42,396 bases of DNA. It comes from a virus. Below are positions 24,627-32,502 of the stretch, one piece after another. How positions within the stretch are numbered: the first letter of the stretch is position 1; the number at the start of each line of letters is the position of its first letter. Under the pieces are notes generated by a model. It was not told the DNA's origin and searched no databases. It saw only the letters and a list, made by a program, of their open reading frames with translations. The stretch is from IMG/VR virus record IMGVR_UViG_2199352024_000002, positions 1 through 42,396 of that record; one strand, 5' to 3'. The translations under genes were made by a program, and so were the position numbers.

Positions 24627-24658
24627 GCACAACCATGCTCACCTCATTCTCCTATCTG
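24627..24658. repeat. 32-bp imperfect direct repeat, copy 2
   Basis: 28 of 32 bases match 24333-24364. It lies directly beyond the tRNA 3' end. It is followed leftward by about 22 codons (24643-24572) reading GEHGCAECKNKLNEVLKSIK and NED with no start codon, which look like the tail of a lost Cys-rich gene. Confidence 0.75.
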
Positions 24659-24741
24659 GTGGGGCGAGTTAGATTCGAACTAACGAAGGCAGAGCCAACA
24701 GATTTACAGTCTGCCACCTTTAACCACTTGGATATCGCCCC
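24657..24741 (-). tRNA. tRNA-Tyr (GTA)
   Basis: 85 bases including an encoded CCA. Acceptor GGGGCGA pairs with TCGCCCC; D-arm region TCCAAGTGGTTAAAGG; anticodon stem GCAGA/TCTGT around loop CTGTAAA with anticodon GTA; class II variable arm GGC-TCT-GCC; T-arm GTTAG-TTCGAAT-CTAAC. The layout matches bacterial tyrosine tRNAs. It is the only tRNA I found. It sits within the early leftward transcript and could supply Tyr decoding to the Tyr-rich fibre and early proteins, or be a relic of a host junction. Confidence 0.95.
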
Positions 24742-26807: not shown

Positions 26808-28310
26808 ATGGCTACATCTCTGCCATATTCACATGAAGCAGAGTGGGCGGTTTTGGGATCACTTTTACTAAACAATCATTGTTATAAAGATATAGCATCA
26901 ATTATTACGGTTTCTGATTTTGATAATGTTTTAAACATGAAGACATTTGAAGCCATAGAGATGTTATTGTCTAATAATAATGCGGTAGATGCGATCTTAT
27001 TAACGGAACACTTCAAAGACGATCCCTCTTTTGGGAAAACTCATTTTTTTGATTTGATTCGCCAACAAGTTTGTCCAACCAATATCCTTTATTACGCACA
27101 AATCATAAGAGATAAAGCCCTTCTAAGACATCTTTATCGCCTAACTGATACGGCAAAGAACAATATCTTTGAAACCAATATCAACCCAACCAAAATTATT
27201 AGCGAACTAACAACCGCTTTAGAGCATTTACAAACCAAAGCAAAAGCCAATGATAAAGACTGGTTAATGGATGCTAGCGAATGTTTAGAGCAACCTGCAC
27301 CCCAACATTGGCTTGTTAAGCATTGGCTTCCTAAGCGTTCTCTTTGCATGCTAGAAGCAAAACCCGCAGCTGGCAAGTCCTTTTTAGCCTTAGATTGGGC
27401 CCTAAGAATAGCCAATGGAGTGCCCTTCTGGCTTAATCATAAGGTAAGCAAAGGAATAGTGGTGTATCTAGCTGGAGAAGGCCACTATGGCCTTAGAAGG
27501 CGTGTTAAAGCCTGGTGCCAAGTTAACAAAGTGGAAACAAAAGATTTATATTTATCCCAAAGTGGCTGTCATTTAGATACCGAAGAAGGTTATCAAAAGG
27601 TTTTATCAACAATTAAAAAAAAATCCATTATTCCATCACTTATTGTTGTTGATACTCTACATCGCTTCCTCGCGGGACATGTTAATGACTCCCAAGATGC
27701 CAGCAAAATGATTACCGCTTGTGACAAATTAAAACAAGAATTTGATGCAACTATCCTTCTAATTCATCATGTAGGCCATAATGCCGACCATAAACACCGA
27801 GGTGTAGGCTCTATCGTTCTAAGCGCAGCTCTGGATATTGACTTAAATTTAGAAAACATAGAAGGTAAATTACATCTTACTCAGCCTAAGCCCAAAGATT
27901 GTGAACGCGCAGAAAAATTAATATTAGAATTAAAACAAATTACTATACAAAATTGGCTTGATGATGAAGGTGAGCCTGTTACGAGTGCTATTATAGTACA
28001 GGCTGAAGAAACGATAGAGCAAAAAGAGGCCAATATTACGCTTATTAATCATCAAAAAATGTTCAATCTAGCTTGGGAATTTGCTGGTAAAAAGCTAAAT
28101 TATGAACAAAAACCGTACATTTATCGCCATGAATTTTATGATTTTCTCGTCAATGAGCGTGGATTTTCCCCACGTTCTGCGCAACAATCTCTCAAAAACT
28201 CGGATACAAAAAGAACAATTGGCTTTCTTTTAGTAAATAAAATGCTCAGCATCTTCGGCGATGGCTGGGCAATATTTAATCAGGAATGGTTAAATAATAT
28301 ACTAAAATAA
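26808..28310 (+). CDS. Replicative helicase: DnaB N-terminal domain fused to RepA-like AAA ATPase
   Basis: 500 residues. Residues 1-120 (LPYSHEAEWAVLGSLLLNNH ... YYAQIIRDKALLRHLYRL) match the DnaB N-terminal helical domain. The ATPase part is of the RSF1010 RepA / AAA_25 type, not the DnaB C-domain: Walker A AKPAAGKSF (184-192), LAGEGHYGLRRRVKAW (221-236), Walker B LIVVDTLHR (278-286), NDSQDASKM (293-301) and H-motif LLIHHVGHNAD (317-327). It should unwind the phage origin and recruit host primase and polymerase. The C-terminal 100 residues are helical and variable. Confidence 0.87.
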   Translation: MATSLPYSHEAEWAVLGSLLLNNHCYKDIASIITVSDFDNVLNMKTFEAIEMLLSNNNAVDAILLTEHFKDDPSFGKTHFFDLIRQQVCPTNILYYAQIIRDKALLRHLYRLTDTAKNNIFETNINPTKIISELTTALEHLQTKAKANDKDWLMDASECLEQPAPQHWLVKHWLPKRSLCMLEAKPAAGKSFLALDWALRIANGVPFWLNHKVSKGIVVYLAGEGHYGLRRRVKAWCQVNKVETKDLYLSQSGCHLDTEEGYQKVLSTIKKKSIIPSLIVVDTLHRFLAGHVNDSQDASKMITACDKLKQEFDATILLIHHVGHNADHKHRGVGSIVLSAALDIDLNLENIEGKLHLTQPKPKDCERAEKLILELKQITIQNWLDDEGEPVTSAIIVQAEETIEQKEANITLINHQKMFNLAWEFAGKKLNYEQKPYIYRHEFYDFLVNERGFSPRSAQQSLKNSDTKRTIGFLLVNKMLSIFGDGWAIFNQEWLNNILK

Positions 28311-28329
28311 GAGCGTGGTCAAATAATAT

Positions 28330-28395
28330 ACGATTCGGGTACACGCCGTACACGCCGGTACATCGCGGTACACGTTTTCGATGTACCCGAATCGT
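28330..28395. repeat. 14-bp inverted repeat enclosing four iteron-like units
   Basis: Perfect arms ACGATTCGGGTACA (28330-28343) and TGTACCCGAATCGT (28382-28395). Between and overlapping them are four GC-rich units on a GGTACA(C/T)CGC theme: GGTACACGCC, GTACACGCC, GGTACATCGC, GGTACACGTT. It starts 20 bases after the helicase stop. It could be a replication-origin iteron cluster or operator. No U-tract follows, so it is not a standard terminator. Confidence 0.75.
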
Positions 28396-28482
28396 TCATT
28401 TCTTACTCTAGTTTTGTATTAAAAATAACACTCAATCGATCGGTTAATTACACTGTGATTATAATTTAATCTAAATTTGTTC

Positions 28483-28682
28483 TTTTTTGAGCGTTTTCGG
28501 TACATGTTTGGCCCAGCTCGCTACCATGCACGCAAGTTACTACACCCAGTATACCCTTACGGGTATACTAGGGGGTGTAGTATACACTTACCGCTTGTGC
28601 GTGGCACTAAGGTGCAGCACGCGGACGGTACCCTAGCGTTGCGATGGTATCTGCGCTAGCTCCCCCTCCGGCTCTCAAAAAA
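28483..28682. other. 200-bp structured non-coding element with stacked hairpins
   Basis: Bounded by TTTTTTGAG (28483-28491) and CTCAAAAAA (28674-28682). Inside: a hairpin at 28538-28582 with 19 paired bases (TACTACACCC and AGTATACCC, TTAC loop, 3-base bulge), flanked by further partial pairing of GCAC..AAG with CTTGTGC; a hairpin at 28599-28622 (GCGTGGCAC, TAAG loop, GTGC-AG-CACGC); and CTAGCG/CGCTAG (28633-28659). It is markedly GC-rich in an AT-rich genome. A TATAAT at 28460-28465 lies upstream. The stretch 28311-28776 has no convincing gene. Candidate origin, structured RNA or insertion. Confidence 0.7.
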
Positions 28683-30668: not shown

Positions 30669-30866
30669 TTAATCCTCCTTTTCTTCTATTTTTTTATTTA
30701 TCCAAGCATTTACTTCTGTTTCTACCCATAGATTGTTTCGTAGGCCAAACTTAACCGGTTTGGGACACAACCCATTTTTTAACATCTCGTAAAATGTACT
30801 TCTACTCATATGTATTTTATCTAAAACCTGTTGCAATTTTAAAAATTTAATTTCTTTTTCATTCAT
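30669..30866 (-). CDS. AlpA-type helix-turn-helix regulator
   Basis: 65 residues. LKLQQVLDKIHMSRSTFYEM (9-28) is a MerR/AlpA-like HTH, followed by a wing (GLCPKPVKFGLRNNLWVETE) and the usual VNAWINKK end. Proteins of this family act as transcription regulators or excisionases. With no integrase in the genome, regulation is the likelier role. It lies a short way from the repeat modules at 31103-31232, which could hold its binding sites. Confidence 0.82.
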   Translation of the reverse strand: MNEKEIKFLKLQQVLDKIHMSRSTFYEMLKNGLCPKPVKFGLRNNLWVETEVNAWINKKIEEKED

Positions 30867-31015
30867 TTTATTTGCCTCTCTATACCCATAGCTATTCCAC
30901 TTAAGATTAATACTTCCTCTTCGGTTAGCGGCTCTTCATCCGCAGGTCTGGAGGGAGAATGATAAATACCATCTTGATTCTTTAAATATTCCGCGAAGTC
31001 TGTGTAAACTTTCAT
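30863..31015 (-). CDS. 50-residue hypothetical protein
   Basis: Begins MKVYTDFAEYLKNQDGIYHS, then PSRPADEEPLTEEEVLILSG. Acidic, with an ATGA overlap onto the AlpA-like gene. First gene behind the leftward promoter at 31046-31074, with ribosome site GAGGGA 6 bases upstream. Unknown role. Confidence 0.65.
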   Translation of the reverse strand: MKVYTDFAEYLKNQDGIYHSPSRPADEEPLTEEEVLILSGIAMGIERQIK

Positions 31016-31045
31016 GATTTGTCCCTCTATTTGTACTGTAATGAA

Positions 31046-31074
31046 AGAATAGCTTAGTTAATGATATTTGTCAA
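31046..31074 (-). promoter_or_regulatory. Leftward promoter of the AlpA block
   Basis: Minus strand TTGACA (31074-31069), 17-base spacer, TATTCT (31051-31046). Upstream tract AATATTTTGCCAAAAACTA closely parallels the promoter at 19753. The leader to the first ATG (31015) is only about 25 bases. Confidence 0.75.
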
Positions 31075-31102
31075 TAGTTTTTGGCAAAATATTTTAATAT
31101 TA

Positions 31103-31137
31103 GTTTACGCGCGTAAACCGTAAATTTTTGCGTAAAG
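31103..31137. repeat. 35-bp repeat module 1 (word GCGTAAA)
   Basis: The 7-base word occurs at module positions 9-15 (GCGTAAA), 16-22 (CCGTAAA) and 28-34 (GCGTAAA), with its inverse TTTACGC at 2-8. GTTTACGCGCGTAAAC at the start is a perfect 16-bp palindrome. The module is abutted on both sides by the same 13-mer, TATTTTAATATTA (31090-31102 and 31138-31150). Confidence 0.8.
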
Positions 31138-31163
31138 TATTTTAATATTATTTTCACGGATAA

Positions 31164-31198
31164 GTTCACAATGTGAAATGTGAAAAAATTTGTGAAAG
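31164..31198. repeat. 35-bp repeat module 2 (word TGTGAAA)
   Basis: Same architecture as module 1 with another word: TGTGAAA at positions 9-15, 16-22 and 28-34, and inverse TTCACA at 2-7. All three direct copies are perfect. An A/T spacer fills positions 23-27, as in the other modules. Confidence 0.8.
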
Positions 31199-31232
31199 TT
31201 TCCCGGCGGGAAGCGGGAAGTTTTGCGGGAAA
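31198..31232. repeat. 35-bp repeat module 3 (word GCGGGAA)
   Basis: GCGGGAA at positions 9-15, 16-22 and 28-34, inverse TTCCCG at 3-8. It shares one base with the end of module 2. The three modules lie between divergent promoters, upstream of the terminase-small candidate. The rest of 31016-31324 holds the two promoters and no gene. Confidence 0.8.
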
Positions 31233-31258
31233 TTTCATGCATAAATATCTACCTAAAC

Positions 31259-31288
31259 TTGACAATTTGATGTTTTTATTCATAATAT
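31259..31288 (+). promoter_or_regulatory. Rightward packaging-operon promoter
   Basis: TTGACA (31259-31264), 18-base spacer, TAATAT (31283-31288); CATAAT at 31281 with a 16-base spacer is an alternative. It should drive the terminase and portal genes. ATGCAT lies upstream here (31237) and at the other late promoter (39727). Confidence 0.65.
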
Positions 31289-31324
31289 GGGTGGAAATAT
31301 TAATCAAGTTTCGGACGGTGCGCA

Positions 31325-31729
31325 TTGAATGAACAAATTATCCCATTAAATCAAGGGGTGGAATTTATCCCTACTGCCCAAGAGCGGGGTATTGTCATTG
31401 GAATGGCATTATCTGGACGCACTGTTGAAGAGATGGGCAAAATATTAAGAATTTCTGATGATACAGTTTGTAAACATTTCAAAGAAGAATTGAAATATAG
31501 CGTGGGCTTCTTAGAAGGCTCATGCTCTTACAAACTTTGGAACATTGTGCAAACAAGTGATGACTTAAAAGCAGTAGCAGATGCTGCTAAGTTCTTATTA
31601 CGCTTTAAATGTAAATGGAAAGAGGATAAGTCAGTTGATTTAAATGAACATTCTAATACGGTAGCGGTGGCAGCTCATGCCTTTGTTCAGGCTATTTTAG
31701 AAGAAAAGGAGAAGAAGTATGACCACTAA
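31325..31729 (+). CDS. Putative terminase small subunit (HTH protein)
   Basis: 134 residues. An N-terminal HTH-like region (GIVIGMALSGRTVEEMGKIL, RISDDTVCKHFKEEL; residues 23-57) precedes a helical part suited to ring assembly. It is the first gene of the packaging operon, about 900 bases before terminase large, the usual place for the subunit that recognises the packaging site. The sequence is not diagnostic and a regulator cannot be excluded. The repeat modules just upstream are possible binding sites. Confidence 0.6.
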   Translation: MNEQIIPLNQGVEFIPTAQERGIVIGMALSGRTVEEMGKILRISDDTVCKHFKEELKYSVGFLEGSCSYKLWNIVQTSDDLKAVADAAKFLLRFKCKWKEDKSVDLNEHSNTVAVAAHAFVQAILEEKEKKYDH

Positions 31730-31949
31730 TCAATGCCCACAATGCGGCTATTGTCCAACGTGCGGAAGAAGCAATACAGCATGGGGTGCTGGATGGAGCC
31801 CTGTTACTTTTACGACCACTCATAATGGTACTGGCCCTATTACTTCTGGATATGCGCAATCTGTATTTAAACCAGAAAATCTTCAGGCTGGTGACAAAGG
31901 AACCTCAACGCCTCCTTTATATCATTCTGGCCATTCGGTAGGTGGATAA
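31719..31949 (+). CDS. Small zinc-ribbon-like protein 1
   Basis: 76 residues, overlapping the previous gene by 11 bases. CPQCGYCPTCGRS (6-18) supplies four closely spaced Cys, then a Gly/Thr/Ser-rich, probably flexible tail. Similar short proteins occur beside phage terminase genes. Whether it binds zinc or a packaging component is unknown. Confidence 0.65.
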   Translation: MTTNQCPQCGYCPTCGRSNTAWGAGWSPVTFTTTHNGTGPITSGYAQSVFKPENLQAGDKGTSTPPLYHSGHSVGG

Positions 31950-31950
31950 C

Positions 31951-32115
31951 ATGATCATTAGCTGTGAGTGTGGGTCCCCTTTAATAATAGATACCACGAC
32001 GAGGTTAGTGGGTCGTCCTCCACGTTATAGAACAGAATGCTCAGGATGTGGTGAGGAAGGAGGTCCGATACATATTGAAAATGTTTTTATTAAAAAGGAG
32101 GGTTTTGATGGTTAA
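31951..32115 (+). CDS. Small zinc-ribbon protein 2
   Basis: 54 residues starting MIISCECGSPLIIDTTTRLV, one base after the previous stop. CECG (5-8) and CSGCG (30-34) give a classic two-knuckle ribbon. It overlaps the next gene by 8 bases. Function unknown. Confidence 0.65.
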   Translation: MIISCECGSPLIIDTTTRLVGRPPRYRTECSGCGEEGGPIHIENVFIKKEGFDG

Positions 32116-32308
32116 AAAATGTAAGTGCGGGGGCGTTTATGACTCTGCCTATAATGAGAGCATTAAGCCTATTACGAAATGGATTGTTGCTAACTGCAAC
32201 AAATGCGAGAAGGGGGTTTTAGTAAAATATACGGAATTTCTTAAGGAGACCCACGATGACCATTATGGCTGGGGTTCATCGCTTTGTTCAGGCGATAGGG
32301 GATTTTGA
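32108..32308 (+). CDS. Small zinc-ribbon protein 3
   Basis: 66 residues from ATG 32108, chosen because GGAGG lies 6 bases upstream. CKCGG (5-9) and CNKCEKG (30-36) form the two knuckles, then an acidic, His-containing tail. Its TGA shares a base with the next ATG. Function unknown. Confidence 0.68.
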   Translation: MVKKCKCGGVYDSAYNESIKPITKWIVANCNKCEKGVLVKYTEFLKETHDDHYGWGSSLCSGDRGF

Positions 32309-32502
32309 TGATTAAACTATGCAACTGCGGTCAGTTCTTACATGTCAAACACAACATTTCTACTAATGGCGTGACCCAACCACGATGCGCTATCTGTAAG
32401 TGCGGAGAAACAGCAGAATTGCCACCGTTAAATCCCCATGAAGAAAGAGCGTTCTGGAATGAATATATGAGGGAATTCAATGCTAACCCAACTTCCATCT
32501 GA
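32308..32502 (+). CDS. Small zinc-ribbon protein 4
   Basis: 64 residues: MIKLCNCGQFLHV, then CAICKCGE near residue 27-34, and a helical, acidic C-terminus (NPHEERAFWNEYMREFNANP). ATG 32308 has GGGGA 6 bases upstream. Same fold class as its neighbours by Cys spacing, but little other likeness. Function unknown. Confidence 0.65.
   Translation: MIKLCNCGQFLHVKHNISTNGVTQPRCAICKCGETAELPPLNPHEERAFWNEYMREFNANPTSI

Follow-up and report, generated by a model that had tools for sequence, protein, structure and literature searches.

The noncoding junction between two divergent operons of a 42,396-bp virus record (hereafter the window, meaning the entire stretch of DNA analyzed) contains an ordered array of three modules in which one geometry is repeated with three different words. 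The ordered array is real and far beyond chance expectation, and its 128 bp are rather likely, judging from the sequence, to serve as a cis-regulatory operator hub in transcription control. Operators and regulators normally change together, with one word per regulator; an operator that holds three dialects in one layout would be either a natural record of specificity change or a multi-regulator phage switch.

The record encodes a P22-like portal (phrog_156), TerL (phrog_38), a scaffold, and a major head protein, and is probably a complete circle, since the head gene and the next conserved gene are 1,465 bp apart across the window's ends, nearly as in the relative L002 (1,468 bp). No integrase match was found in the 42,396-bp record; a tRNA-Tyr (GTA) gene is present at 24657-24741.

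Layout of the array and its neighbors

The array lies in the region 31016-31325, bounded by the first leftward ORF (30863-31015) and TerS (31325-31729). The features of the junction, in window coordinates, are as follows.

30669-30866, minus strand: AlpA-like HTH protein, gene 2 of the leftward operon (PF05930, E 1.2e-11; PHROG excisionase and transcriptional regulator)
30863-31015, minus strand: 50-aa open reading frame, first in the leftward operon
31046-31074, minus strand: predicted leftward sigma-70-type promoter, TTGACA-17-TATTCT, 10/12 consensus matches, serving the operon 31015-29376, of which the AlpA-like gene is part
31090-31102, no strand assigned: AT-rich 13-mer TATTTTAATATTA, first copy, flanking Module 1
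31103-31136, plus strand: Module 1 (M1), inverted TTTACG at 31104-31109 and direct CGTAAA at 31112, 31119, and 31131; reads GTTTACGC GCGTAAA CCGTAAA TTTTT GCGTAAA
31138-31150, no strand assigned: AT-rich 13-mer TATTTTAATATTA, second copy, flanking Module 1
31153-31158, minus strand: extra 13th site, CGTGAA, before M2, intermediate between the M1 and M2 words
31164-31197, plus strand: Module 2 (M2), inverted TTCACA at 31165-31170 and direct TGTGAA at 31172, 31179, and 31191; reads GTTCACAA TGTGAAA TGTGAAA AAATT TGTGAAA
31198-31231, plus strand: Module 3 (M3), inverted TTCCCG at 31200-31205 and direct CGGGAA at 31207, 31214, and 31226; reads GTTTCCCG GCGGGAA GCGGGAA GTTTT GCGGGAA
31259-31286, plus strand: predicted rightward sigma-70-type promoter, TTGACA-16-CATAAT, 11/12 consensus matches, serving the TerS-TerL late operon
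31325-31729, plus strand: TerS, first gene of the rightward operon

Every module places the direct copies of its word at 0, +7, and +19, with a 6-bp linker separating the third; an inverted copy precedes them at an offset of -7, except in M1, where the offset is -8. The 6-bp cores, CGTAAA, TGTGAA, and CGGGAA, are perfect in all 12 copies and can be written in the common form YGKRAA, which occurs at 13 sites in 130 bp here, relative to 4.5 per kb genome-wide. The original prediction, made from the letters alone, described three modules of one layout, each built from identical 7-base words whose four copies change together at fixed spacing. The shared layout stands, as does the concerted change of all four copies at the level of the 6-bp core. 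The 7-base words are not all identical (the second M1 copy is CCGTAAA and the inverted M2 copy TGTGAAC), the spacing is not fully fixed for the inverted copy, and the inverted copy of M3 is shifted by one.

The 13-mer TATTTTAATATTA, rightly reported on both sides of M1, sits inside a 29-bp repeat (83%) flanking that module, and an AGTTT edge and a TTTTG linker are common to M1 and M3. Homogeneity within a module is limited to the core; flanks and linkers are not homogenized.

The modules had also been placed between divergent promoters, beside an AlpA-like HTH gene and a terminase-small candidate, and this setting was borne out on each count: the two predicted promoters are near-consensus, the HTH gene is matched by PF05930, and homologues of the candidate lie directly upstream of TerL in relatives, identifying it as TerS. 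The midpoint of the array (31167.5) falls 1 bp from that of the two -35 boxes (31166.5). Relative to the predicted starts, the nearest cores are at about -67 and -64, the nearer module occupying about 64-95 bp upstream of each; the sites do not overlap the promoters and lie upstream of both -35 boxes. Between TerS and TerL, small CxxC (zinc-ribbon-like) proteins are encoded in a run (31719-32502), and the late operon of many relatives begins with similar small CxxC proteins.

Chance expectation and comparison with other phages

When at most one mismatch is allowed among the direct copies, the layout is found at only these three places in 42 kb, on both strands, and in none of 40 simulated genomes. 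Simulation with the region's own composition gave 71 occurrences of three direct cores in 2.36e8 positions, and none in which the inverted copy was also present; triple patterns are not frequent in simulated sequence, a point on which the original prediction had made itself dependent. Likewise, the pattern YGKRAA-N-YGKRAA-N6-YGKRAA is matched three times in the window versus 0.00 expected, and never in 189 loci outside the window region, including loci with a homologous TerS. If the 12 words (four each of three kinds) are shuffled, every module is uniform by kind with P = 1/5775. The layout was defined post hoc, from the data, which is a minor concern given that the same geometry recurs three times in 130 bp.

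The original prediction proposed looking in related phages for the same layout carrying other words. The layout is absent from about 1.3 Mb of other phage DNA. A strict scan of the TerL and major capsid protein (MCP) relatives and of loci with DnaD-like genes gave a sole match, in L082, attributable to chance; two degenerate scans of IMG/VR gave 14 chance matches, mostly in coding sequence and with words that do not agree, and the Y-G-T-R-A-A form of the layout had no IMG/VR match. Distant blastn searches of phages and plasmids returned weak, chance-level matches only. As for nearer kin, TerL and TerS peptide patterns recovered no close relatives in IMG/VR, an MCP search there found one 7-kb fragment that does not reach the array region, and a TerL scan of genome contigs yielded three distant loci with no helpful lead to the host.

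In many of 80 TerL relatives at 44-52% identity, a divergent junction precedes the late genes, as judged by crude gene calls from a script that missed the window's own, real junction. In a minority, words are repeated at the late-operon junction, and the word differs per lineage: GTAATAA palindromes in L025, L028, L039, and L040, TTACCATGT three times in L014, TTTACAATTTA four times in L033, and GTGTGCT in L020. Such lineage-specific words support this position as an operator region with a drifting word. The module layout was not seen in L026 and L072, two relatives with an AlpA gene. Upstream of terminase genes, Fur-box-like palindromes (AATGAGAATnATTCTCATT) occur twice or more (L058:101-250, L037:1-60).

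When 3,610 noncoding stretches of 240 bp were surveyed for several different word families, the present array and one in the distant relative L049 ranked at the top, once L012 had been set aside as mostly one family counted repeatedly. The L049 array (L049:10259-10540) is set between two divergent promoters, of which TTGACA-17-TATGCT reads leftward and TTGACA-18-TATGAT rightward; it lies upstream of a gene for a DnaD-like helicase loader, and at least four different words recur in it. It contains TATCCCG-GA-CGGGATA-TTTTC-CGGGATA-A-CGGGATA-TTTTT, followed by CTGGGAAG four times (the last incomplete), AAGCACATCAA three times, and, further on, AGTTGC three times. Its 12- and 8-bp steps, T-rich linkers, and inverted plus direct copies are reminiscent of the window's modules, and the 12-mer TTTTGCGTAAAG is common to both. 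Unlike in the window, its words and periods vary more among themselves (7, 8, 10, and 11 bp), and its left gene is the DnaD-like loader, with no AlpA match in L049; no shared DNA-binding regulator was detected between the proteins of L049 and the window. L049 is one partial parallel, and the resemblance of the two arrays is suggestive only. Elsewhere in L049 (11256-11585, PYEMHFNIMIYLSVKDALVFLSTNK) and in L189 (18969-19460, PYEILYQISFFMPVKDIASLKKTNK), F-box-like proteins were noted by eye; the pair is unusual for phage and may point to a host that lives within eukaryotes.

A putative operator hub and its three dialects

The original prediction left operator array, packaging site, and origin side by side. 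The operator array is now the best supported, and the other two have been weakened. In the proposed operator hub, a phage DNA-binding protein, most likely the AlpA-like protein of the leftward operon or a related regulator, would fill the sites cooperatively as a multimer, and their occupancy would set the switch between the leftward operon and the rightward TerS/late operon. With the sites placed upstream of the two -35 boxes, the protein would be likelier to act by activation, or by wrapping or looping the DNA, than by directly covering the promoters; simple repression would be expected to involve promoter overlap, which the sites do not show. The AlpA-like protein is the first candidate binder of the array.

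The nearest precedent comes from phage 186. Its Apl protein binds cooperatively, and with low specificity, to 6-bp direct-repeat sites that lie several in a row between the early promoters pR and pL, and sites of AlpA/Cox/Xis-type proteins are spaced 10-11 bp apart (PMC7498355). The window's array resembles the Apl operators of 186 pR-pL and the Cox boxes of P2 and W-phi in its consecutive, promoter-associated, direct-repeat 6-bp sites; the Apl/Cox systems are regulated by a small HTH protein encoded in the early operon, as the AlpA-like HTH candidate of the leftward operon would be. It differs from the Apl case in its 7- and 12-bp spacing, its inverted copy, and its separate word for each module, and its promoters diverge whereas pR and pL face each other. 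Direct-repeat sites beside promoters and a family gene in the adjacent early operon (PF05930, 30669-30866) are as found in RDF arrays; the sites are 7 and 12 bp apart in every module, not one helical turn (10-11 bp), and for this reason the array is not filed under the AlpA/Cox/Xis-type family. In the Gram-negative PICI EcCICFT073, AlpA activates its own promoter, and the portion of that report drawn on here describes no operator of the window's layout (PMC6092414). The window is similar in having a PF05930 gene beside a promoter that may be autoregulated. It differs from a PICI in being a phage genome that encodes virion proteins and yields no integrase match.

Heptad arrays, such as those of pSM19035 omega and the NarL heptamers, consist of 7-bp units, direct and inverted, upstream of promoters. 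They differ from the window's array in having one word per regulator. Further, no RHH or response-regulator gene was matched in Pfam or PHROGs among the leftward-operon proteins and ORFs tested, so the RHH gene found near such operators has no counterpart there; RHH genes were seen by eye in the relatives L022, L033, and L040.

Common linkers and a common AGTTT edge in M1 and M3 suggest that all three modules may go back to a single ancestral one; the words would then have diverged in concert into three YGKRAA dialects. Two routes to such concerted divergence can be envisaged: related regulators, the phage's own and those of co-infecting relatives, would read different dialects, or copies would be homogenized within modules while one tolerant protein reads them all. 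The second route, a single regulator of relaxed specificity (YGKRAA) for which the dialects have no functional meaning, is a plausible though somewhat doubtful form of the operator hub, with slippage or local template switching as the source of uniformity within modules. A single consensus covers all 13 sites, the hybrid CGTGAA at 31153 among them, and the shared consensus and hybrid site favor one protein family; low-specificity binding is also a property of Apl and RdfS, which are broadly comparable regulators. Against it, slippage or template switching would have to homogenize only the cores, sparing flanks and linkers, and to reach a third direct copy that stands behind a 6-bp linker. That flanks and linkers were not homogenized favors selection on the core.

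It is tempting to suggest, as a more doubtful form of the same operator hub, that three related regulators of different specificity, belonging to the phage itself and to competing phages or satellites, each have a separate array. The switch could then respond to several elements, and L049, with its four or more words, could be a second case.

Origin, packaging, and hairpin readings

It is unlikely that the modules are replication-origin iterons bound by an initiator. Like iteron origins (the lambda O-type, and the sets that follow helicase genes in phages), they combine short direct repeats and an inverted copy with a phage-specific word, and AT-rich 13-mers flank M1; the L049 array, moreover, lies just upstream of the DnaD-like helicase loader gene, and the cumulative GC-skew minimum falls near 31 kb. 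Iteron origins, however, have one word per origin and adjoin an initiator or helicase gene, whereas the array is 2.8 kb from the end of the helicase gene (26808-28310; DnaB N-terminal domain, AAA_25), and GC skew follows gene strand throughout. A separate set of iteron-like, GGTACAC-like repeats, four direct and one inverted, comes immediately after the helicase gene at 28336-28388, and this second set weakens the origin reading of the modules. The set after the helicase gene is, on sequence grounds, the probable replication origin of the phage. Different words in a similar arrangement occur right after the VirE-like helicase genes (VirE by eye) of L012 and L030.

A packaging site (pac or cosB-like), with TerS binding the modules and terminase cutting nearby, is improbable. 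Between the end of the array and the TerS gene downstream there are 94 bp, in keeping with packaging sites in or beside that gene, and the modeled TerS structure (pLDDT 70) is helical and has an HTH at its N terminus, its best PDB match being Sf6 TerS, a weak one (E 0.31). The reading is weakened, on the other hand, by relatives with a homologous TerS that lack such arrays upstream (among the 189 other loci), and the comparable L049 array adjoins the DnaD-like loader gene, not terminase; neither would one TerS be expected to need three dialects.

Hairpin or cruciform DNA, in which the inverted word would pair with any direct word and compensatory change would produce the co-variation, is very improbable. 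The inverted copy is complementary to all three direct copies in every module, and M2 joined to M3, as single-stranded DNA, outperforms shuffled sequence in folding (z -2.53), an excess that may come simply from the inverted copies. Individual modules show no such advantage over shuffles (z -0.33, -1.02, and -0.67), which weakens the stem-forming option offered in the original prediction; one direct partner would suffice, instead of three with fixed 7/12 spacing, and pure pairing does not require a consensus common to three words. An Rfam search matched only a tRNA, with no RNA family at the array.

Two further candidates were rejected: CRP sites (TGTGA) for M2, as the half-sites point outward, and an attachment site, given that the record has no integrase match.

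Several other elements were observed along the way. The GGTACAC-like set is enclosed by a longer inverted repeat (window 28325-28400). A strong hairpin at 28538-28579 (TACTACACCC...GGGTGTAGTA, with an inner GTATACCC-TTAC-GGGTATAC stem and no Rfam match) lies in a 440-bp noncoding stretch. Iteron arrays at L012:1126-1475, L030:826-975, and L008:26-175 differ in their words and are alike in having an inverted copy, a GC-rich core, and direct copies. Finally, four copies of a short hairpin are found at L081:101-250 (GTACTACGGAAACCGTAGTA) and L071:1876-2025, with a 3' flank that is partly shared.
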